Source: Niabella ginsenosidivorans (GTDB taxonomy: Bacteria > Bacteroidota > Bacteroidia > Chitinophagales > Chitinophagaceae). Taken from it: a DNA stretch of 64,000 nucleotides. The notes beneath the pieces were generated by a model. The model searched no databases and was not told the origin of the DNA. It saw only the letters and a program-made list of their open reading frames with translations. A program made the translations under genes and the position numbers. Below, one piece after another: positions 1 to 24,401 of the stretch. Position 1 is the stretch's first letter. Each line of letters starts with the position of its first letter. The DNA is taken from positions 2,666,001 to 2,730,000 of the forward strand of contig NZ_CP015772.1 of the NCBI RefSeq assembly GCF_001654455.1, in the 5' to 3' direction.

Positions 1-130
1 CTGTCCATACATACATACCGATCAGCAGGCAGGATGCAATCCCCACCGAAAGGCCAAGCACATTAATGGCTGTATATAATTTATACTTTTTTAAATTCCG
101 AAAAGCAATTTTTAAATAATTTTTGATCAT
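1..130 (-). CDS. ABC transporter permease (FtsX/MacB type), N-terminal part only
   Basis: This is the first 43 codons of another array permease, cut by the left edge. The start at 130 lies in the context ATCT-ATG-ATCAAAAATTA, shared with the neighbouring permeases. The protein opens MIKNYLKIAFRNLKKYKLY and runs into a first membrane helix (AINVLGLSVGIASCLLIG), matching the opening of the complete paralogues downstream in coordinate. It shows the array continues beyond the window. Function is inferred from that N-terminal signature only. Confidence 0.85.
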   Translation of the reverse strand, partial: MIKNYLKIAFRNLKKYKLYTAINVLGLSVGIASCLLIGMYVWT

Positions 131-371
131 AGATTTGAGAATTGAGATTTGAGATTTCAGTTATCAGTTGTCAGTTTCCAGGGCACCCGCTATTTTCACT
201 ATTTCCCTTCAACATATTTCACATCCTTATTTCTTATTTATCATGACTTATTTAATATTTACACCCCTACCCGCTACTTCCTACATGCCATTGACCATTG
301 ACTATTCACCTCATTTTTACATTCCATATTCAACATTTTATATTTTACATTTCTTATTAATTATTCCCGTC
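131..371. repeat. Inter-permease spacer with short degenerate repeats
   Basis: No gene is seen. On the minus strand the part beside the start at 130 is made of AAATCTC/AAATCTG-like units followed by ACTGATAACTG-like units. The part next to the stop at 372 is purine-rich, with AATAAG, GAATGTAAAATG and similar words. The same two-part design recurs in the other spacers of the array. Confidence 0.6.
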
Positions 372-2765
372 TCATTCATTTTTTAACGCTTTAACCGGTT
401 TAGCCATAGCCGCCTTAACAGCCTGAAAGCTTAAGGTAAAACCGGCTATAATAAGCGCCAGGGTACCTGAAACAGCAAACATCCACCAACTGATGTGGAT
501 ACGGTAGGCAAAATCCTGCAGCCATATACGCATCACATACCACGCAACAGGAATGGCCATCAGCAAAGAGAAAAGAATTAGCTTTAACAGATCTGTGGAC
601 AATAACCGCACCAGGCCAATAGTTGAGGCGCCCAGCACCTTGCGGATACCGATCTCTTTTACCCGCTGCCCGGTTGTAAACGTAATCAACCCGAACAACC
701 CTAAACAGGCAATACCAATCGTAAGCAGGGTAAATACCAACAACACCTGTCCCTGCTTTTCTTCTGATTCGTATTGCTTCTTAAAATTCTTATCCAGAAA
801 TTGATACTCCATTGGCGCTGCCGGATCAAACTTCTTAAAAATATTTTCTATAAACCGCACTGTTTGGCCAATATTTTGAGGGCCTACACGTACATATACG
901 TTATCCTTATCCATTGGAGTTGAGGGCAACTGCATGACCATGGGCTCAATCTTATGTTGCAGCGAATAGATATGAAAGTCATTGGTAACCCCGATCACCG
1001 TTTTGATCAGCGCCTTCCCCATTGTATCCTGGCCTGTTTGTATCTTTTTCCCAATAGCATTTGCCCAGCCCATTTTTTTTGCAAAGGCATCATTGATCAG
1101 CACGGCACTGCTATCAGTTAAAAGTGATTCATTAAAATTACGCCCCTGTTGCATGTGGATACGCATTGCCGGAATATAGTGCGCATCTATAAGTAACCCG
1201 TAAGCCAGCGTTATATTCTGATCAATAGCGCCGTCAGGCCGTTCTACGTTAAAAGCGCCCATTCCAATATTATTATTACCGATGGGGTTGCCGGCAAAAG
1301 CCACTGCTTCTACCGCCGAATTTGTTAATAACGCGTTCCGCAACTCACTGCTTCGCATACGGGCCTGCTCATTATCCAGATGAAAGGTCAGCACCTGATT
1401 CTTATCAAAACCCAGATCCTTCTTTTCCATAAAATGAAGCTGGCAATAAATGACCAGTGTGGCTGCAATCATAATAACCGTTATCGTAAACTGGAACACC
1501 ACCAGGCATTTACGGAACAATTGCTGGACAGACTGCTTTCCCATCTGATTTTTTAATGCAGGAACGGTTTTAAACCCGGAGAGAAAAAGCGCCGGGTAAA
1601 GCCCCCCGATGATACCAAGCGTTAATGAAAATAACAAAATAGTTATTAGCTGAAGTGACCTGAAATAATACAGTATCTGTATATTTTTGCCGGTTAACTG
1701 GTTAAACACAGGCATAAAAACAGCCGCCAGTATAAGGCTCAGCAAAGCGGCGCCAATAGTAAAAAGAACCGTTTCTGCAAGGAAGAGATAAATAAGGTCT
1801 TTACGCCCGGAGCCAATAACCTTGCGGATGGCCACCTCCCGCAGCCGGACAGCGGCCCTCGCAGTGGTGAGATTAATATAGTTAATAAGGGCAATTGCCA
1901 GGATCAGGAAGCCTATTACAGAGAAGATGTAAATAAACTTCATATTCCTGTTTACGCCCAATTCATAGCTGACATTTGAATGAAGATGAATAGATGTCAG
2001 CGGCTGTAATTCCAGGCTGTATTTTATATCAAGCCCCTTGCTATAAAGATATTTTTTTACAAAAGCGGGCAGTTTTTGCTGCAATGCAATACCATCCTCT
2101 TTGCTTTTTAATACTACATAAGTGTAGAGATAAAAATTTGACCAGTCTGCTCTGAAACCAGCCGGAAATGAACGGATAGCCCTGAAAGTAAAATGAGAAT
2201 TTCCGGGTACATTATCAATAACTCCTCTAACGACATTGGGGATGCTATTTTGGAAATAAACCGTTTTGTTCAACGCAGCGCTTACACTTCCAAAAAGATT
2301 GATGGCCAGTTCCTTTGTGAGCACAATTGACTGTGGTTTTAAAAGGGATGTAACGGCATTTCCGGCCAGGAACCGAAAGCTGAAAACGGAGAAAAAACTG
2401 CTGTCCGCAAAAAAAATATCATCCACTTTTAGCCGTTTTTCTCCATAAGAGATCAGACCACCTCCTTCTGCGTCCAGCCGCACTGTTTGTTCCACTTCAG
2501 GATAATCCTTCTTAAGCGCCGCTGCCGTTGGACCGGAAGTGCCTGTAATATCAAAATTGCCCCCCTCCCATTTGCCATGTGATACCAACCGGAAAATGCG
2601 ATCTGATTTTTCATGATAGCGATCGTAGCTCAGTTCATCTGCTACAAAAAGGGCGATTAACCAGAAAGCAGCCAACGCAAACGCCAACCCGGCAATATTG
2701 ATCACCGAGTAAAGCTTATTTCTTGTTAAGTTCCGCCACGCTGTTTTAAAATAATTTCTAATCAT
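372..2765 (-). CDS. ABC transporter permease, double MacB/FtsX type (array member 1)
   Basis: 797 residues, read as an inner-membrane permease with two MacB_PCD-FtsX halves fused, so one chain could pair with an ATPase dimer. Helix 1 is about residues 21-42, followed by a periplasmic domain to about 275. A helix and the coupling segment REVAIRKVIGS (about 309-319) lead to two more helices and a second, similar half with KEIGIRKVLGAS. It ends VKALKNE, the array's usual C-terminal signature. The mid-protein copy of that signature is aberrant (FKTVPALKN instead of xPVxVLKG). Family membership is secure. Substrate is unknown; peptide, lipid or lipoprotein handling are all possible for MacB relatives. 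Confidence 0.9.
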   Translation of the reverse strand: MIRNYFKTAWRNLTRNKLYSVINIAGLAFALAAFWLIALFVADELSYDRYHEKSDRIFRLVSHGKWEGGNFDITGTSGPTAAALKKDYPEVEQTVRLDAEGGGLISYGEKRLKVDDIFFADSSFFSVFSFRFLAGNAVTSLLKPQSIVLTKELAINLFGSVSAALNKTVYFQNSIPNVVRGVIDNVPGNSHFTFRAIRSFPAGFRADWSNFYLYTYVVLKSKEDGIALQQKLPAFVKKYLYSKGLDIKYSLELQPLTSIHLHSNVSYELGVNRNMKFIYIFSVIGFLILAIALINYINLTTARAAVRLREVAIRKVIGSGRKDLIYLFLAETVLFTIGAALLSLILAAVFMPVFNQLTGKNIQILYYFRSLQLITILLFSLTLGIIGGLYPALFLSGFKTVPALKNQMGKQSVQQLFRKCLVVFQFTITVIMIAATLVIYCQLHFMEKKDLGFDKNQVLTFHLDNEQARMRSSELRNALLTNSAVEAVAFAGNPIGNNNIGMGAFNVERPDGAIDQNITLAYGLLIDAHYIPAMRIHMQQGRNFNESLLTDSSAVLINDAFAKKMGWANAIGKKIQTGQDTMGKALIKTVIGVTNDFHIYSLQHKIEPMVMQLPSTPMDKDNVYVRVGPQNIGQTVRFIENIFKKFDPAAPMEYQFLDKNFKKQYESEEKQGQVLLVFTLLTIGIACLGLFGLITFTTGQRVKEIGIRKVLGASTIGLVRLLSTDLLKLILFSLLMAIPVAWYVMRIWLQDFAYRIHISWWMFAVSGTLALIIAGFTLSFQAVKAAMAKPVKALKNE

Positions 2766-2789
2766 AGATTTGAGATTTCAGACATGAAC

Positions 2790-2805
2790 CCCGATAGCGA
2801 TCGGG
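2790..2805. repeat. CCCGAT/ATCGGG palindrome
   Basis: CCCGATAGCGATCGGG lies just upstream of the permease starting at 2765 and is followed at once by two more ATCGGGAT words. It is one of four close copies in the permease array. Confidence 0.6.
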
Positions 2806-2973
2806 ATGGGATCGGGATCAGTTATCAGCTTTTTGTTCTCAATTTTTAATTACCTTCTACCCTACTTGCTATTTACTACTCCCTACTTACTATTCACTAT
2901 TCACCAATGCCCTTCAACCCATTCCTCATCCCTTATTTATTATTTTTCATTTTATGTTCTACATCCTGCATCT

Positions 2974-3130
2974 TTACTCACTCCGCAGCACCTTTACCGG
3001 GTTGGCCATAGCGACCTTTATTGATTGAAAACTTATTGCAATTAACGAGACCACTAAAACCAGGAGCGCTGCAATCAGAAACAGGCTAAATTCAAGTAAT
3101 ACCTGGTAATGGAAGGTTGTCAGCCATTTA
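2974..3130 (-). pseudogene. C-terminal remnant of an array permease
   Basis: About 50 codons read WLTTFHYQVLLEFSLFLIAA and end in FQSIKVAMANPVKVLRSE. This matches the last helix and terminal NPVKxLRSE signature of the complete permeases. Nothing of the upstream 740 residues remains. The frame is open back to 3216, but those codons only read through spacer sequence. The 3' end and adjoining spacer nearly repeat those of the next permease (compare about 2950-3030 with about 3185-3265). That fits unequal recombination between tandem copies deleting a gene body. No start signal is seen, so it is probably not expressed as a functional protein. Confidence 0.75.
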
Positions 3131-3208
3131 TTGTTTTCAGCCTTTAATCTGATTACTGTTCTCTCTCCACTTTTATATTCATTATTTATTATTCTACATT
3201 CTGCATTC

Positions 3209-5593
3209 TTATTCACTCCGCAGCGCCTTTACCGGGTTGGCCAGTGCCGCTTTTATTGACTGAACGCTTATTGTAACCAGTGTGATGAACGCTGCGCTAA
3301 AAGCAGATACCGCAAAGATCCACCAGGGAATTGGAGCACGGTAACTATATCCCTGAAGCCACATATGCATGCAATACCAGCCAACGGGAACGGCAATTAC
3401 AATCGAAACCAATACCAGGCTGAAAAAGTCTTTTGACAATAATTTCCAAAGACTGAATACGGAAGCGCCCAGTACTTTTCTTACGCCTATTTCTTTTACT
3501 CTTTGCTCTGCCATAAACGAGGCCATACCAAATAATCCCAGGCAACTGATAAAAACAGCCAGCAACGCAAAAATCCCTCCCAGTTTCCCGACCCGTTCTT
3601 CATCGCCAAATTTCCGGTTAAAATCTTCATCTATAAACTGAAAGTGAAAATCCTGGTCAGGCACAAACGATTTATAAGTTGCTTCCAGTTGTTTTACGGC
3701 ATCTGAGGCATTGGCACGGGGGTGAATACGTGCTATGATAAAACTGATATTGTTATTTTCCAGGCTGAATACAGCCGGGCGTGCATCTGCATAAGGAGAC
3801 TCCATGATCATATTTTTAATTACCCCGATAACAGTGGCCGGTTTCTCTTCCCAGGTCAACACTATACCCACGGGATTTTTCAGGCCCATGAAATGAACAG
3901 CGGCTTCATTTAATATAACCGCTGAAGAATCAGAAGGAAAATCTTTTGAAAAATCCCTTCCCTGTGTTACTTCCCATCCGATTGTTTTTCCGTAATCCAC
4001 TGTTACATTCTGTGCGCCAAATTCTCCGGCTACACCGGGTTCTTTTCCAGGCCAGTCAATACCTGTGGTCGTATTGTTCACCTGCGTAGGCAGGCTGCTA
4101 CCTAATGCAACAGACTCAAAAATGCCACTGTTTAAAAGCTTTTGCCGCAAAGCCGCAAAATGGCTTTCGATAGCCGGGCTTCCGGCATCTACAGCTATAA
4201 TACCATTTTTATCATATCCTACAGGGCGGTTTTTGGCAAACCGGATCTGCCGGAATACCATTAAAGTACCAATAATAAGAACAATGGAAATAGTGAATTG
4301 CAATACTACCAGCACCTGCCTTTGCAAACCAGCCTTTTTACCTGCCTGAAAGGAGCCCTTTAAAACGTTCACCGGGCGAAAGGATGATAAATAAAGTGCG
4401 GGGTAAATGCCCGCGAGCAGCCCTGTGAACAAACAAAATATCGAACCAAGTATCCAGAAGAGCGGATCGTTCCAAACTGCCGGCATCTCCCTGCCCGTTA
4501 TGGCAGTAAACAAAGGCAGGGAAAGCGCTACCAGGGCAAGGCTTAGTGCAAATGCAAGAACCGCATATAAAAGTGACTCGCAAAAGAACTGGATTATTAA
4601 CTGATTTCTTAAGGACCCAACTGTTTTGCGTATGCCCACCTCCTTTGCCCGTTTAATGCTGCGTGCCGTGCTGAGGTTCATAAAATTAATACAGGCCAGT
4701 AAGAGTACGAATATGCCAATAATGCCAAACAACCAGACATACCGGATACGCCCCCCGTTATTAACACCGTTTTTAAAGCTGTCATACAAATACCATTGAT
4801 CCATAGGGTACAAAAACAGCTGGGGGTTTTGCTTTGCCAGGCGCTCATTGATATGCCGTAAACGGACATCTTTTATTAAAGCAGATGCCTGGTCCAACCG
4901 GGCAGGGTCTTTCAATTCCACTAAGGTCAGAAAAGAATTAGGTCTCCATGGATCCGGCGCCAGGCGTATCCAGTCGGCATGATTGAAATACAGCGTCCAG
5001 GGTGCAATAAATTTCAGGTTATTAAAATCTGAGTTTAATGGAAGATCTTTATAAATTCCTGTAATTTTTAACGGCAGGCTATCTGCGAATACGATTGTTT
5101 TTCCGATTACGCTTTCGTTCCCAAACAATGAACGCGCGGTTGCCTCAGACAGCATAATATTATTGGGCTCAGCCATACCTTCATAAGTGCCTTGCAGCAT
5201 ATGCAGCCCCAGCAAGGGGCCAATGCCTTCCTCAAAAAAACCGCCACCCAGTACCAGCTTTTTATCTCCGGAACGCAAAGAACGGGTCTCATTTACTTCG
5301 GCCAGTACTACCTGCTTAAACAAATTTCCATACTCCCTGCGTAACGCCCCGCTTAAAGGGTAAGGGGTATTGTCTATAGTATTGATTACTCCCTTGTTGG
5401 TTTTGTTCTGCATCACTTTAGCAATCTGCTTATGATTACTGATCCCCTTATTATAGGATACTTCGCTCCATACCCATATACCAATAATCATAGCTACGGC
5501 CATACCAATAGCAAGTCCCAGGACGTTGATCACTGCAAAGGCCCTGCTTTTTCCCAGATTCCGCCACGCTGTTTTAAAATAATTTTTGATCAT
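3209..5593 (-). CDS. ABC transporter permease, double MacB/FtsX type (array member 2)
   Basis: 794 residues beginning MIKNYFKTAWRNLGKS. An in-frame ATG four codons earlier (5605) exists, but the chosen one matches the paralogues. The first half carries ACINFMNLSTARS followed by KEVGIRKTVGS. The second carries KEIGVRKVLGAS and ends NPVKALRSE. The mid-protein signature FRPVNVLKG is intact. It shares stretches such as FKNG-N-GGRI-YVW and the CINFMNLSTARS helix with the member at 7348-9717, suggesting these two are close duplicates. Its upstream gap carries a pair of 17-bp palindromes proposed below as regulator sites, so it may have its own promoter. Confidence 0.9.
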   Translation of the reverse strand: MIKNYFKTAWRNLGKSRAFAVINVLGLAIGMAVAMIIGIWVWSEVSYNKGISNHKQIAKVMQNKTNKGVINTIDNTPYPLSGALRREYGNLFKQVVLAEVNETRSLRSGDKKLVLGGGFFEEGIGPLLGLHMLQGTYEGMAEPNNIMLSEATARSLFGNESVIGKTIVFADSLPLKITGIYKDLPLNSDFNNLKFIAPWTLYFNHADWIRLAPDPWRPNSFLTLVELKDPARLDQASALIKDVRLRHINERLAKQNPQLFLYPMDQWYLYDSFKNGVNNGGRIRYVWLFGIIGIFVLLLACINFMNLSTARSIKRAKEVGIRKTVGSLRNQLIIQFFCESLLYAVLAFALSLALVALSLPLFTAITGREMPAVWNDPLFWILGSIFCLFTGLLAGIYPALYLSSFRPVNVLKGSFQAGKKAGLQRQVLVVLQFTISIVLIIGTLMVFRQIRFAKNRPVGYDKNGIIAVDAGSPAIESHFAALRQKLLNSGIFESVALGSSLPTQVNNTTTGIDWPGKEPGVAGEFGAQNVTVDYGKTIGWEVTQGRDFSKDFPSDSSAVILNEAAVHFMGLKNPVGIVLTWEEKPATVIGVIKNMIMESPYADARPAVFSLENNNISFIIARIHPRANASDAVKQLEATYKSFVPDQDFHFQFIDEDFNRKFGDEERVGKLGGIFALLAVFISCLGLFGMASFMAEQRVKEIGVRKVLGASVFSLWKLLSKDFFSLVLVSIVIAVPVGWYCMHMWLQGYSYRAPIPWWIFAVSAFSAAFITLVTISVQSIKAALANPVKALRSE

Positions 5594-5610
5594 AGAGCTG
5601 AGCATTAAGT

Positions 5611-5626
5611 CCCGATAGTTATCGGG
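5611..5626. repeat. CCCGATAGTTATCGGG palindrome
   Basis: A perfect 7-bp inverted repeat with a 2-bp centre lies 18 bp upstream of the permease start at 5593. The same 16-mer recurs at 9742-9757 in the same place relative to another permease. Confidence 0.65.
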
Positions 5627-5813
5627 ATCGGGATGAGTTTTGAGATTTCGGTCATCTGTTGTCAGGATAGCCGCTATTCATTTTTCACCATTGCCCTCCA
5701 ACACATTCCTTATTTATTATTCCTTATTTTAAATTTTATCCCTTCAGCTATACCCCAACGAACATGCCGCAATTGTAAAATATTGATTTGCATTATTTTA
5801 GAAAATAAAAAGG

Positions 5814-5869
5814 CGGACAAAGTGTCCGTTTTTAAAACAAAAAACTGTACGCTTTCGGTACAGTTTTTT
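5814..5869 (-). terminator. Tandem hairpins after the DUF4097 gene; terminator and/or operator pair
   Basis: Two inverted repeats lie together. The first is CGGACA-AAG-TGTCCG (5814-5828), followed by T5. The second is a 12-bp perfect arm pair (5839-5850 and 5858-5869) around a GCTTTCG loop, with A/T runs outside the core. Read on the minus strand, the second begins about 30 bases past the stop at 5900 and ends in T-rich sequence, as a rho-independent terminator would. The same bases include TGTCCGTTTTTAAAACA (5823-5839) and TGTACGCTTTCGGTACA (5846-5862), centred 23 bp apart. These resemble the palindrome before the NtrC-type regulator, so an operator role is also possible. Confidence 0.6.
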
Positions 5870-5899
5870 TGTTTAAACAAACAGAACAAACAGCATTGC

Positions 5900-6940
5900 T
5901 TAAAGAGATACTTCCACATTGCCGGAAGAAGCAGTAACTTCAACGGCCAACCGGCCATCGCCGATCATCCCTTTTATCTTGCTTTTATCAATAGTGCCGT
6001 TAAAATTATTCAGGGGATTTACTGATACCCGGTTTCCGCTCAGATCCAGTTTTGCATTCCTGGTACGGGGCAGCTGAAGATTTACCCCTCCGGCGGATGT
6101 ATGTAATTTCACATAATCTTTTGTACGGTTCATTGTTGCAGAAATACGCCCGCCACTGGTACTTGCTTCCAGGTTCCCGCTAATGCCTTTCAGTGTAACA
6201 CTGCCGCCGGAAGTTCCGGTAAGCAGCGTTCCACTGATATTTGTAGCGGTAATAGAACCACCGCTGGTATGCGCACGGATGTCGCCCTCTAAATCAGACA
6301 ATGACAACGAACCGCCGGAGGTTTGCAGCCGGATGGTTCCTGACACATGGTCTGCGTGAATAGACCCACCGCTGGTTTGCAGGTCAATATCATTGCCGGC
6401 ATTGGAAAGATCAATGCTTCCGCCGGAGGTTTTGCCCGCGATCTTACCATTTACCCCATTTATATGAAGGCTGCCGCCACTGGTTTTAAAAAGCTGGTTC
6501 CCTGAAAGCTTTGACAGGGAAATACTGCCGCCACTTGTTGAAAGATCAGAACTAACCCTGGAACCGGAATGCACCACAAAAGAAATAGAAAGCGCAGTTT
6601 TGTTCGTCCAGGGCTTGTCCTTTCTTCTGGCCTTTGCTATCAAAGTAGTACCATCTATCCGCACATCAATATCATAATACTGATCCAATACGGCCTTTAT
6701 ATCGCTTTGCGACATCCGGTGCCTCACCTCAGAGTTGGAAGGCTGCACATACATTTCCAGGCTTCCTGTGCCGCTGCCACCCTCTACTGTAATGGATCCA
6801 CCGGAGGTTTCCATATTTACATTACTTACCGCAGCAATATTAAAGGGTTTGATAAGATAAGGTTCCTCGTTAAAGCGTCTTTGCGCATTTGATAGCAAAG
6901 TACCCAGTAACAGAACAATCAGTAACAGATTTTTTTTCAT
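5900..6940 (-). CDS. Secreted DUF4097-type repeat protein (putative adhesin/beta-solenoid)
   Basis: 346 residues starting MKKNLLLIVLLLGTLLSNAQ, a clear signal peptide. An ATG eight codons earlier would spoil that signal and was not chosen. From about residue 40 the chain repeats (T)SGGS motifs roughly every 18-22 residues, about nine times, each followed by alternating hydrophobic residues. That is typical of the DUF4097/DUF4098 family, predicted to form a right-handed beta-solenoid. Location is probably periplasm or cell surface. It lies inside the permease array on the same strand, hinting at a role in the same envelope response. The biochemical role is unknown. Confidence 0.8.
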   Translation of the reverse strand: MKKNLLLIVLLLGTLLSNAQRRFNEEPYLIKPFNIAAVSNVNMETSGGSITVEGGSGTGSLEMYVQPSNSEVRHRMSQSDIKAVLDQYYDIDVRIDGTTLIAKARRKDKPWTNKTALSISFVVHSGSRVSSDLSTSGGSISLSKLSGNQLFKTSGGSLHINGVNGKIAGKTSGGSIDLSNAGNDIDLQTSGGSIHADHVSGTIRLQTSGGSLSLSDLEGDIRAHTSGGSITATNISGTLLTGTSGGSVTLKGISGNLEASTSGGRISATMNRTKDYVKLHTSAGGVNLQLPRTRNAKLDLSGNRVSVNPLNNFNGTIDKSKIKGMIGDGRLAVEVTASSGNVEVSL

Positions 6941-6964
6941 TTGTATTCTTTTTTGGATGATCAT

Positions 6965-6980
6965 TGTTTAAACGTTTACA
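6965..6980. promoter_or_regulatory. Operator-like palindrome TGTTTAAACGTTTACA
   Basis: This 16-bp site lies 24 bp upstream of the DUF4097 start. Its core TAAACGTTTA is a perfect 10-bp palindrome and TGT/ACA ends flank it. The central CG and TGT/ACA ends resemble LacI/GntR-class operators in general. The cognate regulator is unknown. Confidence 0.35.
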
Positions 6981-7168
6981 GAGCAGGCAGCATTCTTTTG
7001 TCATTTCCCAGCTATATATTATAACTAATCGCATTACATAGAAAAATGTTACAGTACGGGGAAGTTTTTAATTATCAGTCGTCAGTTATCAGGGCTGAGA
7101 ATCGGGAACCCGGTAAATCAGCTATAGGCTATGAATCATTAACTGTGAACCATCTCCGGCTACCCGTA

Positions 7169-7182
7169 CCGATAGCTATCGG
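7169..7182. repeat. CCGATAGCTATCGG palindrome
   Basis: A perfect 14-bp palindrome in the spacer past the stop at 7348. It is a variant of the CCCGATA/TATCGGG element found before other permeases. Confidence 0.6.
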
Positions 7183-7347
7183 GGCAGCATCCGGCATTGA
7201 AATAAACCAGAATTCCGCTCCTCTTCCCCGTCCTTATTTGCTGATACTATTCATACCTTACTTTTCACTTTCCCTATTCCCAATCCAACACGCTCCCTCT
7301 TCCATTCATTGTTTCCTGTTTCTTATTTCTTATTTTTCATTTTAAGC

Positions 7348-9717: not shown

Positions 9718-9741
9718 AGATTTGATTCTTGAGTTATCAGT

Positions 9742-9757
9742 CCCGATAGTTATCGGG
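9742..9757. repeat. CCCGATAGTTATCGGG palindrome
   Basis: An identical 16-mer to the copy at 5611-5626, 25 bp upstream of the permease start at 9717 and followed by the same ATCGG extension. Confidence 0.65.
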
Positions 9758-9896
9758 ATCGGAATCGGTTTTCGGTTATCAGAACAGCCCGCTATTCACT
9801 ATGCACAATCGTCATCCAACACATTCCTCATTCCTTTTATTATTTCTCATTTTATATTCAATATTCTACATTTTATATTTCTTATTCCTTATTCCT

Positions 9897-14940: not shown

Positions 14941-15086
14941 AGTTATAGATTTGAGATTTGAGATTTCAGATTTCAGTTATCAGTCCTGATAGTGCCCCGT
15001 AAAGAGATTTCAGACACTCATTACAGACTACTGACCACTGCTTACTCACTACTTTTACATTTACTATTTTATATTTAACGCTCTTC

Positions 15087-17519
15087 TTACTCCGTTCGTA
15101 AGCTTCTTGCAGGATTACGTAATGCGGCCTTTACTGCCTGAGCGCTTACCGTAACCAGTGCGATCATTAAAGCGCCTAAACCGGCAGCAGCAAATATCCA
15201 CCAGGTCAGTTCCGTTCTGTAAGCAAAGTCCTGCAGCCATCTGTTCATAAAATAACCGCCAGGCGGTGCTGCAATGATAAATGCAATAAGCACCAGTTTC
15301 AGGAAGTCTTTGCTTAATAACCGTACAATGCCCGATGTACTGGCTCCCAGCACCTTTCTTATACCAATCTCCCTCGTTTTTTGCTCCGCGATAAATGTTG
15401 CCAGTCCAAACAGACCCAGGCAGGCAATAAATATTGACAGCGATGAAAACAGGATGGCTATTGTACCCGTCCTGGTCTCCGTCCGGTACATATTGTTAAA
15501 CGATTCATCCAGGAAATGATAACTAAAAGGCATACCCGGTGCCAGCTTTTCCCACGCATTTTTTACCTGCGCAATCAGCCCCGGGATATCGGAAGTGTTG
15601 ATTCTGAATGCAGCGGTGTACGGATTGTAATTCAGAAACAGGCCCAATGGCCCGATATTGCTGTGCAGTGATTCATAATTAAAGTTTTTTACAACACCAA
15701 TCACATGATACTTTGTAATCCGGCCTTCATTATCCGATGCAAAAACATTTTTACCGATCACATTTCCACTGCCCAGGAATTTCGCCGCGGCTTCATTGAT
15801 AATGATGGCGGTGGAATCTGCGCCATAATCTTTTGAAAAGTCTCTGCCCGCCACAATCTGCATACCAAGCGTTGCAATATAATCATAGTCAACATTCCAG
15901 TTTTGCATACTAAACCCGTTTTGCGGTGTCATAACCGCTTCCGTGGAATAAGTATTATCACCCCGGAACGAATTGGAGACCGGCAGGTAACCGCTGTACG
16001 TTCCTTTACTTACACCGGATAATTTCAGCACTTCATTTTTAAATGCCGCTGCATTACTGCCCAGAGTGCCGGTATTATTGATCACCAGTACATGATCTTT
16101 TGCATACCCGATATTCTTTGTTTGTATATAATGCAGCTGCCGGTAAACGACAACCGTTGCGATGATGAGCAGGATGGAAGTGGCAAACTGAAAAACAACC
16201 AGCACGCTTCTCAGGCTGCCGCTTTTCGTGCCCGGTTTCAGGGTGCCTTTTAAAACTTCTATAGGCTTAAATCCTGATAAAAAGAAAGCCGGGTAACTGC
16301 CCGCCAAAAGCCCTACAATTACCGGTAGTAACAATAGCGCGCCTGCAAATGGCGATGATAATAGCGCCGATAAGCGCAATTGCTTTGCTGACAGGTCATT
16401 AAAAACGCCCAGCACGGCATAGTCAATTATAACAGCCAGAATCAGCGCCAGGAATACCATCAGCACCGTTTCAAATAAAAACTGCATAACCAGTCGTATT
16501 CTTTCGGTGCCCAGTACCTTTCTTATACCCACTTCCCGTGCACGGTTGGCAGACCGCGCCGTAGTAAGATTCATAAAATTGATACAGGCTATGAACAGGA
16601 TAAATAAGGCCACTGCGCTGAAGATGTACACATACTGGATATTTCCGGCCGGCATTATTTCATTTTCCCGGTTGCTCTTTAAATGAATACCGGTTAAGGG
16701 TATCAGAGAATAGGCCAGCTTATTGCCTGTCTTTTCAAACTCTTCAAGACTGTTTATATTCATAAACTTCCTTGCATAGGGTATAGCGTATTTTCTTGTA
16801 TAATCCGTAAAGTTTTTCTCAAAAACCCTATAATCCGTACCTTCTTTTAGCAACAGGTAGGTGTAAAAATTGTGGCTGGTTACGGCACCCCAGTTATAAT
16901 CCACGTTCTTCATACTAAAGAAAAGATCAAAGTGGAAATGGCTGTTTGCCGGGATGTCCTTTATCACTGCCGTTATCTTAAAAGGCACCAGCGATCCCTG
17001 CTTTTTTACCTGTAGGATTTTACCCAGCACATTTGTACTTCCAAAATACCGGTTTGCCGCAGCCGCTGTAACCACCACCGTATTCGGTTCATCCAATGCA
17101 TGTCTGGTGCCCCCGGCTATAACCGGTAAGGGAAATATGTTAAAGAAAGTTGAGTCCACGCTGGCCACACTTTTTTCGTTTATATACTGATTTCCCTTTT
17201 TGATCAGACCCGGGCCATCAGAGGTATAGATCCTGGTGTATTCCTCCACCTGGGGATAATCTTTTTTCAGCAAGGGCCCCATCATATCCGAGGTCTGCGC
17301 CATTTTCCGGTATTCATCGCCAAAGCGGAAATCCGTATTGATCCGGTAAATACGATCTGCGTTGGGATAAAAACGGTCATACCCTGTTTCATCGGCTACA
17401 TAGAGCGCAATCAATAAAAAACAGGCAAGACCGATCGCAAGTCCTATGACATTGATAACTGAATACGTCTTATTCTTAACAATGTTTCTCCACGCTGTTT
17501 TTATATAATTACTGATCAT
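15087..17519 (-). CDS. ABC transporter permease, double MacB/FtsX type (array member 6)
   Basis: At 810 residues this is the longest member, beginning MISNYIKTAWRNIVKNKTYS. The extra length lies in the first periplasmic domain, near the SLEEFEKTGNKLAYSLIPL segment before the second helix. Coupling segments are REVGIRKVLGTE and REIGIRKVLGAS. The terminal signature is altered to NPARSLRTE, while the mid-protein FKPIEVLKG is standard. The opening ADETGYDRFYPNADRIYRI resembles member 1 (ADELSYDRYHEKSDRIFRL), suggesting these two form a second subgroup within the array. Confidence 0.9.
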   Translation of the reverse strand: MISNYIKTAWRNIVKNKTYSVINVIGLAIGLACFLLIALYVADETGYDRFYPNADRIYRINTDFRFGDEYRKMAQTSDMMGPLLKKDYPQVEEYTRIYTSDGPGLIKKGNQYINEKSVASVDSTFFNIFPLPVIAGGTRHALDEPNTVVVTAAAANRYFGSTNVLGKILQVKKQGSLVPFKITAVIKDIPANSHFHFDLFFSMKNVDYNWGAVTSHNFYTYLLLKEGTDYRVFEKNFTDYTRKYAIPYARKFMNINSLEEFEKTGNKLAYSLIPLTGIHLKSNRENEIMPAGNIQYVYIFSAVALFILFIACINFMNLTTARSANRAREVGIRKVLGTERIRLVMQFLFETVLMVFLALILAVIIDYAVLGVFNDLSAKQLRLSALLSSPFAGALLLLPVIVGLLAGSYPAFFLSGFKPIEVLKGTLKPGTKSGSLRSVLVVFQFATSILLIIATVVVYRQLHYIQTKNIGYAKDHVLVINNTGTLGSNAAAFKNEVLKLSGVSKGTYSGYLPVSNSFRGDNTYSTEAVMTPQNGFSMQNWNVDYDYIATLGMQIVAGRDFSKDYGADSTAIIINEAAAKFLGSGNVIGKNVFASDNEGRITKYHVIGVVKNFNYESLHSNIGPLGLFLNYNPYTAAFRINTSDIPGLIAQVKNAWEKLAPGMPFSYHFLDESFNNMYRTETRTGTIAILFSSLSIFIACLGLFGLATFIAEQKTREIGIRKVLGASTSGIVRLLSKDFLKLVLIAFIIAAPPGGYFMNRWLQDFAYRTELTWWIFAAAGLGALMIALVTVSAQAVKAALRNPARSLRTE

Positions 17520-17796
17520 TGATTCGAGATTTGAGTTTCGAGATTTCAGATATTCGTCATTGTCATCATTGATTACTGATCATATTTAGTTATTAACTAT
17601 CAGTATGTAACACGCCCTCCCCATTCATTATTGGATTAACAATTATCATTTTATATTCTCAATTATATATTCTACGTTCTATATTTACTATCTCTCCACT
17701 TTTTCATTTCATATTTCTTATTCCTTATTTCTTATTTCGTATTTCGTATTTCGTATTTCGTATTCTTCATCCCGCCTTGCGGAATCTGCACATTAC
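17520..17796. repeat. Inter-permease spacer with ATTTCGT tandem repeat
   Basis: Four perfect ATTTCGT units stand in tandem at 17734-17761, preceded by decayed versions of the same 7-base unit (TTATTTC, TTATTCC). The rest of the spacer has the usual GATTTGAG/TTTCAG words next to the start at 17519. A 7-base unit seems to underlie many of the array's spacers. Confidence 0.7.
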
Positions 17797-20175
17797 TCAC
17801 TCTGCCCGCAATGCTCCCACCGGGTTTACCAATGCCGCTTTTATACTTTGATAACTTACTGTTATTAATGCTATGCCTGCAGTTAATGCGCCTGCAATAG
17901 CAAACAGCCACCCGTTCATGTTAATTTTATATACATAATCCTGCAGCCAGCTATTCATTGCCCACCACGCTACGGGAAAGGCGATTAAGAAAGCAAGTGC
18001 TACCGGCTTTAAAAAATTTACTGACAGTAATTTCATAATACTTGATGAAGAGGCGCCCAGTACTTTACGTATACCAATCTCTTTAGTACGCTGTTCAGCC
18101 GTAAACGTTGCCAGGCCAAACAGGCCAAGGCAGGATATAAATATGGCAAGAAATGCAAAAAGGTTAGCGAGCTTGCTGATCACCGCTTCACTTTTATACA
18201 ATTTCGCATATTCAAGATCGGAGAATTGATATGTAAACGGGAATGCCGGGTTCAATTGCCTGCATAGCTGTTGCAGGAAGGTCAGGGCTTCATTTGTTCT
18301 GCCTGCTTTAATACGTACAAATATGGTTCCCCAGCTCCAGTTTTCATCCAGCCGGATAATCAGCGGCTCAATACGCTCATGCAAAGAACTGAAATGAAAA
18401 TCTTTAATTACCCCAATGATGTGGCCTTCATGGCTACCCCAGCTAATCGTTTTACCAACAGGGTCCTTAAAACCAATCTTATTAACGGCCGTTTCATTTA
18501 ACAGGAACCCAACAGAATCCGTTCCATAGTCTTTTGAAAAATCGCGGCCCGACAGCAGCTGAAGATTCATTGTCTTTACAAAATCGTACCCCACAACCGC
18601 ATCGGCAAACGGCACTGTTAAGTTGGGGTCCTTACCAGGCCAGCTGATATCTAAAAAGTGATGGGATATACCTGTTGGTGAATTGCGCATTTTGGAAATA
18701 TTCACAATAGCCGGATCTGCCAGGGACCTTTGTTTAAAGAGCTCAAAATTTTTAACAAGATCTCCTTCTATAGGAATATAGATAAGGTTGCCCCGATCAT
18801 ATCCTAAATTTTTCGTTTGAATATAGTTGAGCTGTTTATACACCACCATCATAGCAATTACCAGAAACGCGCTCATCGCAAATTGAAAAACCACTAATGC
18901 TTTCCTGAAAAAAGTAGCGCTCCAGCTAAACTTTAAGCTTCCCTTTAAAACGCGCACCGGTTTTAGCGATGAAAGGAACAGCGCAGGATAGCTTCCTGCC
19001 ACAGCTCCTGTAACAATGATTAGACCAAGTATACTTAGCCAGAAAGCGGGCTGGCCGAACGGAAGGGTCAACTGTTTGCCCGTAAGCCCATTAAATGCAG
19101 GCAGGGCAAGCACTGTAAGCAGCACGGCAATTATAATAGAAAAAAAAGCAAGCAGCATCACCTCGCCCATAAACCGGGCAATCAAAGTTGAACGTAAGGC
19201 TCCGATAACTTTTCTTATACCTACTTCTTTTGCACGTTTGGCAGAACGCGCCGTTGCCAGATTCATGAAATTGATGCAGGCGATCAGCAAAACAAATACG
19301 GCAATAATACTGAAAAGGTGCACATACTCTATTCTTCCCCCATCCAGGTAGCCATCTTTAAAATTGGAGTGAAGGTATTTTTCAGTGAACGGCTGCAATG
19401 CCAGCTCCATAATAAAGCTCTTATTCTTTTGCTGGTAATTATAAAGAAAGCTTTTGATCTTATCCTGCACTTTGGCAGCATCAGCATCCGGTCTTAATTG
19501 TATAAACGTTTGCGGGCTTGTGTTGCTCCAGTTATGTACCCAATTGTTTTGCTTTACAAAATCAGCCCATGTTCTTAAAAAATCAAACTGCAATGACGAC
19601 CCGTGGGGCACATTATCAAATACAGCTGAAACTTTTAAATCTTCCTTATTGTCAAACCGGATTATTTTATTAACAGCATCGGATGCATCTCCAAAAAAAT
19701 ATTCAGCCATGTATTTTGACAGGGCGATTGTATTAGGTTCATTTAGCGCAGTTGCGGCATTGCCCTGCAATAAGGGGTAGCTGAACATTTTGAAAAAATC
19801 CTCGCCCGCAAAAGCGCCGCTCATCTTTGTTATTTTTTTCCCGGCTTCAAACGTATTGCTGCTCCCCGGCGGTGCTGCAAATTCAAAGCCGCTTTCATAC
19901 TGAACTTCAGGAACGGTCTTTTTTAATTCCTGGGCCAGGAGGCCCTGTGTGTTATAGCTGGCATCCACCTTTCCATCAAAATAATTACGTTCATATACCT
20001 GGTATAAGAAACTGCCGTTTTTATGGAAGGCATCAACATTTTTTTCATCATTTACCCAAAGCATGATCAGCAAGCTGCAAGCCAGGCCTAAGGCGAGGCC
20101 CATAATATTGATAACGGAGAAGCCCTTTCCGCGAATGATGCCCCGCCATGCTATTTTTATATAATTTCTGAACAT
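17797..20175 (-). CDS. ABC transporter permease, double MacB/FtsX type (array member 7)
   Basis: 792 residues beginning MFRNYIKIAWRGIIRGKGFS, the permease nearest the ATPase gene. The first half has ACINFMNLATARS and KEVGIRKVIGAL. The second has KEIGIRKVLGAS and ends NPVGALRAE, with Gly for the usual Lys. The mid-protein LKPVRVLKGSLKFS is standard. The ATPase gene lies 278 bp upstream on the same strand, so this member is the most likely constitutive partner of that ATPase. That pairing is inferred from position only. Confidence 0.9.
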   Translation of the reverse strand: MFRNYIKIAWRGIIRGKGFSVINIMGLALGLACSLLIMLWVNDEKNVDAFHKNGSFLYQVYERNYFDGKVDASYNTQGLLAQELKKTVPEVQYESGFEFAAPPGSSNTFEAGKKITKMSGAFAGEDFFKMFSYPLLQGNAATALNEPNTIALSKYMAEYFFGDASDAVNKIIRFDNKEDLKVSAVFDNVPHGSSLQFDFLRTWADFVKQNNWVHNWSNTSPQTFIQLRPDADAAKVQDKIKSFLYNYQQKNKSFIMELALQPFTEKYLHSNFKDGYLDGGRIEYVHLFSIIAVFVLLIACINFMNLATARSAKRAKEVGIRKVIGALRSTLIARFMGEVMLLAFFSIIIAVLLTVLALPAFNGLTGKQLTLPFGQPAFWLSILGLIIVTGAVAGSYPALFLSSLKPVRVLKGSLKFSWSATFFRKALVVFQFAMSAFLVIAMMVVYKQLNYIQTKNLGYDRGNLIYIPIEGDLVKNFELFKQRSLADPAIVNISKMRNSPTGISHHFLDISWPGKDPNLTVPFADAVVGYDFVKTMNLQLLSGRDFSKDYGTDSVGFLLNETAVNKIGFKDPVGKTISWGSHEGHIIGVIKDFHFSSLHERIEPLIIRLDENWSWGTIFVRIKAGRTNEALTFLQQLCRQLNPAFPFTYQFSDLEYAKLYKSEAVISKLANLFAFLAIFISCLGLFGLATFTAEQRTKEIGIRKVLGASSSSIMKLLSVNFLKPVALAFLIAFPVAWWAMNSWLQDYVYKINMNGWLFAIAGALTAGIALITVSYQSIKAALVNPVGALRAE

Positions 20176-21203: not shown

Positions 21204-21362
21204 ATATATGGGTTTGAGTTGAGATTTGAATAATCAGATGTTAGAGTTATTAGTCATCAGTTTTCAGTAAGAGCTATACCGGGTTGTTAATTACTATTAT
21301 TTTTCATAATTCTAATTTATTAATAATCTAAAAAAAACACTATCCAAGATTTTACCAGATTA

Positions 21363-21662
21363 GTGATATGGCAAAGAAGCCATCTGCTCACATTAAATAT
21401 TTACCGCATCAGTAAAAAATTTCCCAAAGTGGAAAGTATGGCGCTGACTTACCAAATAGGGAAAGCTGCTTATTCCATACCAACCAATATAGCAGGAGGT
21501 TGTGAAAGAAAAACAACCCCTCAATTAAAGAGCTTCCTGAACATTGCTGCAGGTTCTGCTGCTGAACTTCACTACCAACTTATTTTATTTAAAGATCTTT
21601 TATATCTACCTCGCGCTATTTCTGAAGAGCTAATCCAGGAAATTCTAGAAATCAAAAAATGA
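21363..21662 (+). CDS. Four-helix-bundle protein, 23S rRNA intervening-sequence (S23) family; ends look damaged
   Basis: 99 residues from a GTG start, matching the S23 family (VIWQRSHLLTLNIYRISKKF, then SIPTNIAGG and AAELHYQLILFKDL). The homologous frame continues upstream as IQDFTRL into an A8 run and a stop with no ATG, so the native start is missing or non-standard. At the 3' end the frame stops in an A6 run. One extra A would read on as KKMIYSFMDKL and stop at 21685-21687, the expected family C-terminus. The gene is probably decaying or affected by homopolymer errors. It lies antiparallel between adaptor and ATPase, interrupting that operon. The role of free-standing members is unclear. 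Confidence 0.75.
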   Translation: MIWQRSHLLTLNIYRISKKFPKVESMALTYQIGKAAYSIPTNIAGGCERKTTPQLKSFLNIAAGSAAELHYQLILFKDLLYLPRAISEELIQEILEIKK

Positions 21663-21743
21663 TTTATAGTTTTATGGATAAGCTTTAATACAAGTTTTCA
21701 GTTATTAGTAATCAGTTTTTAACAACAACTGATAACTGGTTAC

Positions 21744-22997
21744 TCACTTCTTCAAAACCAGCTCCTGCATATCCCCGTAGTTCTCATAACTGCTGGTAAT
21801 TACTTTATCACCGGGTTGCAGTCCTTTCAGCACTTCATAATAATCGGGGTTCTGGCGTCCCAGCTGCACTTCAGCCCGGTAAGCCGTTTTGCCGTCATCA
21901 CTTATTTTAAACACCCAGTTTCCCCCTGTTTGCTGATAGAAGCCGCCTTTAGCTAAAAGCACTGCAGTGGTCTCGTCGCTCAGCGCCAGGCTGATAGACA
22001 GGGTCTGGCCGCGGCGGATATCTTTTGGTACATTGCCCACAAATTCCATATCTACCTGAAAACGCCCGTTTGTTACCTGGGTATATATTTTTTTAACACG
22101 CAGCTGGTACGATTTTCCCGCTATGGTCACATCTCCCATCAAACCGTTAAATATGCGGGAAATATAATGCTCATCAATATCCACCCGTACCTTATATCCT
22201 GTCAGCACATCAATCTGACCCAGGCGCTCGCCTTTATTTTTTGACTGGCCGATCTCAGCATCCAGCGAAGTCAGCTGCCCGTCTACAGGTGCCCTCAGGA
22301 TCAGGTCTCCTACTTTACGACCATACAGATCCAGGGCCTTCTGAGAGCTGCTGAACGACTGCGATGCCTGTTTTGTCTGCAACTCGTTAGACTGCTCATC
22401 CTGCTTAATAATCCTTGCTGCCAGGTCTCTTTTTTTCAGCTTATAATAATAATCGTTCTCCGCCTGCTGAAATTCCTGCTTTCCAATGGCCTTATTCTGG
22501 TACAGGTATTTATCCATATTATAAACGCGTTCCGCTTCTTTCAGCTGGCTTTCGGCATCGGTCATCTGGTTCAGGTTGTTCACGGTATTTTGTTGTGCGG
22601 TCACTTTAGCCAGTTGTACCTGCGCCAGGGTTGTATATACATACGATTGCTGCCCTACCAGGCTTAGCTCCAGGTCGGTGTTGCTCAGTCTCAGAATAGG
22701 TTCTCCTTTTTTCATCATGGCCCCGTCCTCTACATATTTTTCTTCAACCCGGCCTCCTTCCATTGCATCCAGGTAAATAGTGCTGGCGGGCATTACAATT
22801 CCGTTTACGGGAATATATTCTTTAAAAGGTGCTTTTTTAACCTCACTGATTGTAATACGTTCGGTATCCACGTTCAGTTTGCTTTTACCGCTCGCCATTA
22901 CAATGCTGAATATAATCAGCAGCACCAGGGCTGTAATGCCGGCAATGGTCCAGATCCGTTTTTTGTTCCAGAACTTCTTTTCAATAACTCTGTCCAC
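21744..22997 (-). CDS. HlyD/MacA-type periplasmic adaptor of an efflux system
   Basis: 417 residues with one N-terminal membrane helix (about 17-36, IAGITALVLLIIFSIVMA), then a lipoyl-like segment (IYLDAMEGGRVEEKYVEDG). A long helical hairpin follows (about 105-215, rich in Gln/Lys/Glu), then the second lipoyl half (LRAPVDGQL) and a beta-barrel domain. Such adaptors join an inner-membrane ABC permease to an outer-membrane channel. No TolC-like gene is present in the window. It lies 14 bp after the small lipoprotein gene on the same strand, so the two are cotranscribed. The ATPase follows about 540 bp further on. Confidence 0.9.
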   Translation of the reverse strand: MDRVIEKKFWNKKRIWTIAGITALVLLIIFSIVMASGKSKLNVDTERITISEVKKAPFKEYIPVNGIVMPASTIYLDAMEGGRVEEKYVEDGAMMKKGEPILRLSNTDLELSLVGQQSYVYTTLAQVQLAKVTAQQNTVNNLNQMTDAESQLKEAERVYNMDKYLYQNKAIGKQEFQQAENDYYYKLKKRDLAARIIKQDEQSNELQTKQASQSFSSSQKALDLYGRKVGDLILRAPVDGQLTSLDAEIGQSKNKGERLGQIDVLTGYKVRVDIDEHYISRIFNGLMGDVTIAGKSYQLRVKKIYTQVTNGRFQVDMEFVGNVPKDIRRGQTLSISLALSDETTAVLLAKGGFYQQTGGNWVFKISDDGKTAYRAEVQLGRQNPDYYEVLKGLQPGDKVITSSYENYGDMQELVLKK

Positions 22998-23011
22998 GAT
23001 TGGTCTTTTTA

Positions 23012-23389
23012 TTATTTGATTCCGTATTGAATGTCAAACCTGCCAGAAGCATTATTACCGCTGAATGTTACTGTATAGGATTGGTTAGAAGGCAGTGCCA
23101 GCTCATTGCTGACCCGCTGGTCAACCTGCTCCTCCACCAGCACTTTGTTGCCGGAACTGACCAGCATCTTTAAATACCCTGATCCTTTCTCCACATTATA
23201 AGCAACATAGCCCCGTCCTTCCCCCTTCAGATCCATCCTGAATTTCTGTTTCCCGGTCAGGTTGGTGAACCCGGCAGAATGGTGCCCTGGTGTGTCTGCC
23301 CCCTGCCATGCATTGGCAGTAACGCCCGTATACCGGTTGCAGGCGCTCAGACAAAAAACAAAAACGATACAAATACTTATTTTCTTCAT
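23012..23389 (-). CDS. Small lipoprotein of unknown function, first gene of the adaptor operon
   Basis: 125 residues, MKKISICIVFVFCLSACNRY, with a lipobox ending at Cys17. The mature part has mainly polar, beta-like segments (KFRMDLKGEGRGYVAYNVEKG and YTVTFSGNNASGRFDIQYG). I do not recognise a named domain. Its 14-bp distance to the HlyD gene suggests it works with the efflux system, perhaps at the outer membrane or as a sensor of envelope state (inference). A 17-bp regulator-like palindrome lies 118 bp upstream of the start. Confidence 0.75.
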   Translation of the reverse strand: MKKISICIVFVFCLSACNRYTGVTANAWQGADTPGHHSAGFTNLTGKQKFRMDLKGEGRGYVAYNVEKGSGYLKMLVSSGNKVLVEEQVDQRVSNELALPSNQSYTVTFSGNNASGRFDIQYGIK

Positions 23390-24337: not shown

Positions 24338-24401
24338 CTTGCAAAAAAATAATCCGGATAATTTGTTTTACCACATTCTCTGTGCATTTTTGTGTACAAT
24401 T

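Follow-up and report, generated by a model that had tools for sequence, protein, structure and literature searches.

The window analysed here, a stretch of 64,000 nucleotides of the complete 5.63-Mb chromosome of Niabella ginsenosidivorans (genome G000, G000:C1:2666001-2730000), opens with an array of double-length permeases of the MacB/FtsX kind. Seven complete permeases, one permease cut by the window edge and one relic lie on one strand together with an HlyD-type adaptor, a lipoprotein-like protein and a DUF4097 protein, just as an earlier reading of the letters without database searches (the sequence-only reading) had described, and each complete permease (789-810 aa, 372-20175) carries two MacB_PCD and two FtsX domains. 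That reading had also assigned the whole array to a single ATPase. This part does not stand: the array runs past the window edge to a second ATPase, B, so that the single ATPase was an artefact of the window. The features of the array are given below, with positions counted in the window unless a locus is named.

1..130, minus strand: N-terminal end of the gene for permease P8 (802 aa), which crosses the window edge and goes on to L001:17722 (G000:C1:2663722-2666130)
372..2765, minus strand: double permease P7, group C (members in 8 other genomes), 797 aa; Pfam MacB_PCD twice, FtsX twice
2974..3216, minus strand: permease relic, a C-terminal remnant of 80 aa, closest to P8 (42% identical), without a Pfam family
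3209..5605, minus strand: double permease P6, group A, 798 aa, with Pfam matches
5900..6964, minus strand: DUF4097 beta-solenoid ('toastrack') protein; PF13349 at 8e-11, NCBIfam LiaG at 60 bits (cut-off 285)
7348..9717, minus strand: double permease P5, group O, 789 aa
9897..12269, minus strand: double permease P4, group P, 790 aa
12565..14940, minus strand: double permease P3, a singleton at 45% identity, 791 aa, GTG start
15087..17519, minus strand: double permease P2, group M, 810 aa; AlphaFold model with 8 transmembrane (TM) helices and two periplasmic domains
17797..20175, minus strand: double permease P1, group W, 792 aa
20454..21203, minus strand: ATPase A (DarD-like), with canonical signature LSGGQQQR and D-loop GNLDS
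21744..22997, minus strand: HlyD/DarC-like periplasmic adaptor, 417 aa; HlyD_3, DarC model at 174 bits (cut-off 450)
23012..23389, minus strand: small lipoprotein-like protein without a family, 125 aa, lipobox-like LSAC start
24231..25751, plus strand: NtrC-type sigma54 response regulator; Response_reg, Sigma54_activat, HTH_8
25738..27075, plus strand: NtrB-type histidine kinase; HATPase_c, two N-terminal hydrophobic helices with hardly any loop between them
L001:16548-17408: alpha/beta hydrolase within the array
G000:C1:2653390-2654064: ATPase B, beyond the window edge
G000:C1:2652059-2653378: TolC-family protein, beyond the window edge, beside ATPase B

The flank to the left of the window (L001, G000:C1:2646001-2666000) continues the array with the remainder of P8, the alpha/beta hydrolase, three further complete permeases, ATPase B and the TolC-family protein, past which lie opposite-strand genes including CorA. 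At the other end, the NtrC-NtrB pair is divergent from the adaptor/ATPase A side of the array, and the true start of NtrC probably lies within the open reading frame at 24231..25751. In all, G000 holds 11 intact double permeases in the array, every one a full-length open frame, and one elsewhere (C1:4082067-4084460); genome-wide domain searches gave two FtsX matches in 12 of these 12 and two MacB_PCD matches in 11, with one in P10, which lies outside the window. No ATPase gene adjoins the individual permeases of G000.

How is this locus built in related genomes? The recurring order is NtrB-NtrC, divergent adaptor, ATPase A, permeases, ATPase B and TolC, and in intact arrays 2-17 permeases lie between a single-copy A and a single-copy B. 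Full-length permeases per fetched region number 17 in G006 and G015, 16 in G010, 13 each in G005, G008 and G014, 11 in G000, seven in G001 and G011, six in G004 and G018, three in G022 and two in G020, with the G003 array left out of these counts. Exceptions to the plan are G001, where one of the seven permeases sits between adaptor and A, G023, where 17 permeases extend across 100 kb and B is on a separate contig, and G016, where the array is fragmented. The check that the sequence-only reading had proposed, namely synteny across relatives, thus turned out in its favour, with constant brackets and a variable number of permeases, and because the arrays recur in relatives, chance and assembly error are excluded as their origin. 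At 45% overall identity the 156 permeases form 30 groups, with 15 left as singletons. Their order is mostly common to G005, G006, G010 and G015, and to G008 and G011, though genes have been gained or lost and a few exchanged, and it is not common to all genomes; the sole recent tandem duplicate seen is in G010 (88%). Members of group J belong to the array in G006, G015 and G018, lie outside it in G022, and in G023 make up another cluster, an opposite one that lies some 65 kb away from A, while G022 combines one A and one B with three array permeases and at least 16 elsewhere in its genome. In the array of G012 (L049, G012:C1:3490001-3510000) permeases, adaptor and NtrC are in pieces and A is apparently intact, a breakage likely due to frameshift errors in an assembly that is 83% complete.

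Are so many permeases kept in use? Among paralogs the mean identity is 43% in the membrane parts and 24% in the periplasmic parts, and the C-half coupling segment is conserved among the window permeases. The contrast between conserved coupling segments and divergent periplasmic domains drawn by the sequence-only reading therefore holds for distant paralogs; it fades among close orthologs, whose membrane parts are barely more alike than their periplasmic parts (77 vs 74% in the 70-80% bin, 88 vs 86% above 80%). For 86 ortholog pairs, 75 of them with usable synonymous rates (dS) and 11 dropped for saturation, the median ratio of nonsynonymous to synonymous rates (dN/dS) is 0.069 in membrane parts (maximum 0.141) and 0.071 in periplasmic parts (maximum 0.139), with a median dN ratio of 1.11. 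The rate difference that the earlier reading had suggested looking for is thus nearly absent between orthologs, and these near-equal, low values rule out hypervariable or positively selected periplasmic domains. Because they reflect purifying selection (dN/dS about 0.07), the permeases are not relics, and the objection that most of them might be does not hold. The variable specificity inferred earlier survives in part, as the periplasmic domains differ among paralogs but are not hypervariable between orthologs. Recent tandem amplification in G000 was ruled out by top paralog identities of 55% (membrane) and 35% (periplasmic), and gene conversion among array members left no sign, the membrane-part identity being 0.434 both within and between genomes. 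The best partner of G000 permeases often changes by segment, mostly at uniformly low identities; for P7 compared with G006, G010 and G015 it differs at 43-45% periplasmic identity, and domain-swap mosaics among the permeases are a possibility.

Among the relatives of G000 the two ATPases travel together, and B travels with many permeases. Across 39 genomes (G000 and 38 relatives) A and B are found as single copies in an identical set of 17, and neither occurs in the other 22, with thresholds of at least 70% identity for A and at least 65% for B, G003 called by fragments and B of G016 partial; in the 22 genomes without them the best match to the ADOP permease family is no better than 7e-46. A wider sample of the phylum comprised 296 evenly sampled genomes, with the best 9-10 ATPase and three permease candidates scored per genome and permease counts thus censored at 3. 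B was called at an E value of 1e-74 in 60 genomes, and the recount of G267 as A (64 vs 57%) left 59. At least three strong double-permease matches were found in 57 of the 59 B genomes, 2 of 32 A-only genomes and none of 205 with neither ATPase (14 of which have one match); the B genomes below three are G020 (two) and G237 (one, in a 350-contig assembly). The Fisher value of 6e-18, calculated with G267 still under B, ignores kinship and is not to be taken as a probability. A-only loci, inspected in 24 of the 32 genomes, have an adaptor, A and mostly one or two permeases nearby, with three in G322 and none nearby in G211, G318 and G326, and NtrC-NtrB adjoins such loci in 9 of 20 and 4 of 4 cases. 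Gene pairs of A and B without an intervening permease also exist: A adjoins B in G088, G076, G319 and the named loci L174 and L176, a gene of the 23S rRNA intervening-sequence protein (IVP) type separates them in G153, G261, G296 and G237. In G286 and G223 both are retained though far apart. Among the best 80 named B loci that were kept, which come from Bacteroidota, Ignavibacteria, Zixiibacteriota, Calditrichia and Latescibacterota, a permease lies directly before B in 59 and A directly before B in 2.

The two ATPases show invariant differences. Sequences of 200-300 aa with more than 55% identity to A or B of G000 gave an alignment of 136 B rows (131 distinct) and 66 A rows (65 distinct), in which the residue after the LSGGQ signature (R149) is Arg in all 66 A rows and Leu, Val or Ile in all 136 B rows. 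The D-loop Asp (D173) is likewise present in 66/66 A rows and is Asn (106), His (28) or Gln (2) in B, and every B row has YH for the Q-loop pair F92-N93 of A, Leu for H137 and Gln for M196. The Walker B DE is retained in both kinds, including 136/136 B rows, and the H-loop VTH in the 14 and 6 B sequences inspected. Five aligned homologues of solved structure (S. pneumoniae 5xu1, three entries of MJ0796, and MacB) carry Arg and Asp at these places, as A does. A quick tree of 85 rows, for which the careful search is unfinished, groups B as one clade with support 100 nested among A sequences (34 B and 46 A rows), so that most simply B would have arisen once from an A-type ATPase.

Where on the permease would such an asymmetry be read? 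The AlphaFold model of P2, built on a 72-row alignment (predicted local distance difference test score, pLDDT, 91.6; predicted template modelling score, pTM, 0.89), has eight long TM helices, two MacB-like periplasmic domains and coupling helices at 327-335 and 715-723. Its top match in the Protein Data Bank (PDB) is YbbP (9ge6, Z 24.9 over 663 residues, root-mean-square deviation 9.7 A), followed by a Porphyromonas permease domain (3is6, Z 21.3) and then BceB, MacB, LolE and others. Halves of four TM helices with a coupling helix, and FtsX/MacB_PCD domains, as seen in Pfam, the P2 model and the PDB matches, place these permeases in the type VII ABC (MacB/FtsX) superfamily. At positions at least 85% conserved in 395 permeases of genomes with A and B, conservation in 29 permeases of A-only genomes drops by 0.23 in the C-terminal tail (7 positions), 0.12 in C-half TM3-4 (7) and 0.08 in the C-half coupling helix (11), and by at most 0.05 in N-half elements. 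Four control groups from genomes with both ATPases show drops of at most 0.01 in the C-half coupling helix and at most 0.10 in the tail; a Sphingobacterium control group drops by 0.23 in the first N-half helix. Where A and B are both present, 432 of 440 permeases have Val or Ile at position 723, vs 11 of 29 in A-only genomes, a difference also found within families (10/10 vs 3/8 in f20, 11/11 vs 4/14 in f38), and the N-half counterpart of this position is equally mixed in the two sets. This pattern matches what a pair of A and B with B on the C-half would predict.

A fundamental question is how two ATPases could serve so many permeases. We hypothesize, and regard as moderately probable, that A and B, as single-copy, non-identical ATPases, are the common engine of a library of interchangeable double permeases, likely in the form of an asymmetric heterodimer with A at the N-half and B at the C-half. 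The proposal of interchangeable permeases on a common engine made by the sequence-only reading is therefore kept, with one A and one B for 2-17 permeases, and amended in that the engine comprises two ATPases; its idea that an ATPase dimer could sit on each single permease is likewise retained as regards the two fused halves, the dimer being probably an A.B pair, as B tracks the multi-permease state. Pairing of A with B, half-specific docking and one engine for all permeases are the most likely account of these comparisons. In the mechanism envisaged, A would dock beneath the N-half and B beneath the C-half of each double permease, and each permease, having two MacB-like periplasmic domains, would have its own periplasmic or membrane-embedded ligand. 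Closure of A.B on ATP would act through the coupling helices on the periplasmic domains, a mechanotransmission described for YbbP/MacB-type systems in the available parts of PMC12646458 and PMC5985334. The permease, working with an HlyD adaptor and a TolC channel common to all, would move compounds out past the outer membrane. The intact Walker B of both A and B suggests two usable ATP sites; the D-loop change of B would alter the site closed against the Walker motifs of A and, given the roles of the D-loop in ABC ATPases, may order the two hydrolysis steps. Substrates would likely be toxic amphiphiles or peptides, as the likeness to DarBCD, the likeness to MacB and the kinase layout suggest, and the likeness to YbbP and the hydrolase genes inside arrays point to membrane lipids. 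An envelope response or export, as first proposed, fits the adaptor, TolC and the NtrC-NtrB pair, with the substrates putative. More tentatively, and with less confidence than for the array itself, we suggest that A.B may be the common asymmetric engine for double MacB-type permeases across the Fibrobacteres-Chlorobi-Bacteroidetes (FCB) bacteria, that B had a single origin from an A-type ATPase, and that its C-half docking freed permeases from an ATPase of their own.

Several observations weigh against a shared A.B engine. Contact between A and B is putative, and A itself carries no clear trace of the presence of B, the consensus of A found with B and that of A-only ATPases differing at two positions, neither in a motif. 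A alone is evidently enough for one or two permeases in A-only genomes, and B may be regulatory or homodimeric. Two A-only genomes, G109 and G322, reach at least three permease matches, and G329 has B without A at threshold. Among the best 80 named B loci, TolC lies directly after B in only 42, and 13 have no permease within the fetched flanks. The drop in the C-half coupling helix is mostly that of two positions, V723 and G719, the controls reach 0.09 in C-half TM3-4, near the A-only value of 0.12, and the 29 A-only permeases are a phylogenetically clumped sample. Lastly, G000 holds three further MacB/LolD-type ATPases, one adjoining its own single-length permease. The earlier reading had named dedicated ATPases as a possible refutation; none lies beside the individual permeases, yet these three leave another partner possible.

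If A alone suffices for small loci, does it also suffice for the arrays? A homodimer of A, as in a DarBCD-like unit, could drive all permeases, with B an accessory, a regulator or a competitor that poises the engine; A-only loci have one or two double permeases, the same kind of adaptor and partly the same regulator pair, and the altered signature and D-loop could leave B a poor hydrolase. However, B follows the multi-permease state (57/59 vs 2/32), and the C-half docking face differs in B genomes, which an accessory not touching the permease would not explain, and we consider this account unlikely. Homodimers of A and of B serving different array permeases, that is, two superimposed systems, would suit the placement of the ATPases at opposite array ends, B beside TolC and A beside the adaptor. 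We judge this quite improbable, as the permeases of genomes with both ATPases are not split into two C-half docking classes (723 is Val or Ile in 432/440), the N-half is just as varied in A-only genomes, and A-B gene pairs occur with no permease between them.

The preferred reading of a shared engine must also be set against accounts in which the permeases do something else, or nothing. On one such account most array genes are decaying duplicates without a present role and the work falls to A, B and a single permease. The relic at 2974-3216 would fit it, as would the degraded array of G012, where the adaptor and NtrC are broken too, so that frameshift errors are partly responsible; the dN/dS of about 0.07 (maximum 0.14) over both membrane and periplasmic parts and the 11 open frames of G000 make it very improbable indeed. 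A different proposal keeps the shared engine and makes the permeases non-exporters, which would use mechanotransmission to maintain the envelope (by extracting lipids or lipoproteins, or by activating hydrolases) in the manner of YbbAP-TesA, LolCDE and FtsEX. YbbP is the closest full-length fold and hydrolase-type genes (alpha/beta hydrolase, S41-peptidase-type, beta-lactamase-family) lie inside arrays, but the locus also has an HlyD adaptor and, in this genus, TolC, as in tripartite efflux, a point that is not decisive given TolC beside B in 42 of the best 80 loci; we consider this proposal somewhat unlikely.

Parts of the system are already known, namely the type VII fold, double permeases, DarBCD-like units and sigma54 enrichment at COG0577 permeases. 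A literature search covering few subscription journals found no description of a system with two ATPases, constant brackets and variable permeases, nor of an A/B motif asymmetry tied to permease expansion. The darobactin exporter DarBCD (NCBIfam NF038007/8/10) likewise has a separate ATPase, an HlyD-like adaptor and a double-length FtsX permease, and is the best NCBIfam model for A, B and the adaptor, with equivalog cut-offs not reached (A 301/375, B 258/375, adaptor 174/450, permeases 89-172/700 for the eight scanned). A DarBCD unit has one permease and one ATPase, whereas the G000 array has eleven and two. ADOP (TIGR03434) shares the internal duplication, the length of about 800 aa and the large paralogous sets, and is the best full-length model below its cut-off of 622.3, at 251-303 bits for the seven window permeases and one of L001 and 325 for the dispersed permease. 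ADOP genes are, by the family description, not next to ATPase genes, whereas the G000 array has ATPases at both ends. Matches over the ADOP cut-off in two genomes with A and B, G276 (3/3 scored) and G334, the genome of L176 (1/30 double-permease matches), link ADOP 'orphans' to the A.B engine, foreign contigs being possible in G276. In G334 and G276, A and B are present and the double permeases are spread over many contigs.

Other relatives are closer in fold than in composition. E. coli YbbAP-TesA (PDB 9ge6-9ge8) has the type VII fold, two fused halves and two periplasmic domains, but one kind of ATPase (YbbA) and no named adaptor or TolC; YbbP has 10 TM helices according to the available part of PMC12646458, and the P2 model 8. 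MacAB-TolC has the same MacB periplasmic core, adaptor and TolC, and in G000, too, an adaptor and an outer-membrane factor are encoded with the permeases; it differs in that MacB is a half transporter with the ATPase fused (available part of PMC5985334) to a 4-TM permease, whereas the array has double permeases and separate ATPase genes. The Bce permease has a single large extracellular domain and 10 TM helices, against two periplasmic domains and 8 TM helices in the P2 model. BceAB-BceRS nevertheless resembles the array in its FtsX-fold double permease and in its kinase, BceS, which has two TM helices but lacks a sensor domain in the periplasm, and differs in that the array has an NtrC/sigma54-type regulator, adaptor, TolC and many permeases to one kinase. 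Heterodimeric ABC exporters with a degenerate site likewise have two related ATPases with asymmetric motifs; their ATPase domains are part of the membrane subunits, whereas A and B are free subunits, apparently common to many permeases, with the Walker B Glu and H-loop His intact in both. The array has the consistent motif asymmetry of such engines, and a degenerate Walker B or H-loop is absent in B; MsRv1273c/72c is an exporter of this degenerate kind (available part of PMC12038006).

Should the shared engine be confirmed, ADOP-type 'orphans' would become detachable front ends of one A.B engine, held in arrays, mobile with insertion sequences (IS) or scattered over the genome, and A.B would be a candidate motor for many orphan permeases. 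The motor is seemingly constant and the membrane part a library, against the usual view of one motor per membrane part. Energy-coupling factor (ECF) importers likewise join a constant motor to a library of membrane parts; unlike them, the present system has the MacB fold and two dissimilar ATPases. Genomes with A.B and A-only genomes would offer a natural comparison for the evolution of asymmetric ATP sites, and Bacteroidota and neighbouring phyla would share a modular export or detoxification system whose specificity might be readable from its periplasmic domains.

How might the array be switched on? The following features belong to the region of the lipoprotein gene and NtrC.

23418..23433, minus strand: candidate sigma54-like element TTGGCAT-N4-TTAAG, found with the relaxed pattern only; it lies upstream of the unit of lipoprotein, adaptor and ATPase A
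23736..24182, minus strand: 148-aa protein without a family, signal-peptide-like start; in 7 genomes of the genus including G000
24231..24246, minus strand: second candidate sigma54-like element TGGCACGGCATTTCAA, 64 bases ahead of the 148-aa gene

NtrC/NtrB would turn on the adaptor/ATPase unit, plus some permeases with sites of their own, via sigma54. In the gap between adaptor and NtrC, TGGCA(C/T)-N4-5-TT points adaptor-ward in 19 of 30 loci and NtrC-ward in 2, with 0.8 expected in shuffles, and the stricter form ending in TTG gives 12 and 1 with 0.2 expected. TGGCAY-N5-TTG occurs 10 times forward and never in reverse in 137 intergenic regions before permeases (0.1 expected), five of the ten being one ortholog group counted across genomes. 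Judged from these motifs, the array may thus be under sigma54 control. Two points tell against it: the element usually lacks the GC at -12 and has a spacing of 4 or 5, and a canonical sigma54 weight scan reached 0.85 in only 1 of 155 permease upstream regions and in none of 19 adaptor regions. A further pattern, TGG-N9/10-TTGC (21 forward vs 1 reverse in a 200-base scan), was dropped, as the 200 bases reach into the 3' coding part of the gene before; in intergenic DNA, TGG-N9-TGC gave 6 forward, 1 reverse and 2.3 in shuffles. By hydropathy, 31 kinases (more than 33% identity, that of G000 included) have two N-terminal hydrophobic helices that are nearly loopless, the layout of intramembrane-sensing kinases, and weaker hydrophobic stretches further along some of them are taken as cytoplasmic. 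Because a periplasmic sensor domain is lacking, the kinase probably takes its signal from the transporter or from the membrane, in the way that BceS does from BceAB. Enrichment of sigma54 at COG0577 permeases in Bacteroidia is already reported in the available part of PMC12316311, so the sigma54 link as such is not new.

The one G000 permease outside the array (C1:4082067-4084460) is a member of group Q, found in the array of G004 and at a site away from it in G022. On either side of the G000 permease stands a 1,594-bp IS110-family element; the two copies are identical and point the same way, an arrangement like that of a composite transposon:

L004:4343-5936 (G000:C1:4080343-4081936): IS110-family copy
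L004:9691-11284 (G000:C1:4085691-4087284): IS110-family copy

Enzyme and beta-solenoid genes also occur within arrays, namely the alpha/beta hydrolase in G000, an S41-peptidase-type gene in four genomes (one Pfam-tested) and a beta-lactamase-family protein in G015; the DUF4097 protein is found inside the arrays of 7 genomes, G000 among them, and DUF2807 proteins lie directly before B in two genomes of another family. Against PADLOC anti-phage models the ATPases gave generic ABC matches only, and the one permease and the DUF4097 protein scanned gave none. The in-array enzyme/solenoid genes besides the alpha/beta hydrolase, and the IVP-type gene of the window, are as follows.

L013:7959-9374: in-array enzyme/solenoid gene
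L029:125-1699: in-array enzyme/solenoid gene
L092:17420-18166: in-array enzyme/solenoid gene
L093:15680-16417: in-array enzyme/solenoid gene
21363..21662, plus strand: 23S rRNA-IVP-type four-helix-bundle gene in the gap between adaptor and ATPase A; PF05635 at 4.6e-29, TIGR02436

The IVP-type gene is probably a passenger. Such genes recur among adaptor, A and B in G000, G005, G008, G010, G016, G023, G153, G261, G296, G237 and G236, despite their rarity (8 matches in the whole G000 genome, 7 over the cut-off), and their orientation varies between genomes, so either repeated insertion or a retained passenger is possible. Beside the kinase, at 27084-31339, a DUF4421 gene and two genes of 221 and 863 aa occupy the same position in several relatives and appear to be ordinary neighbours.

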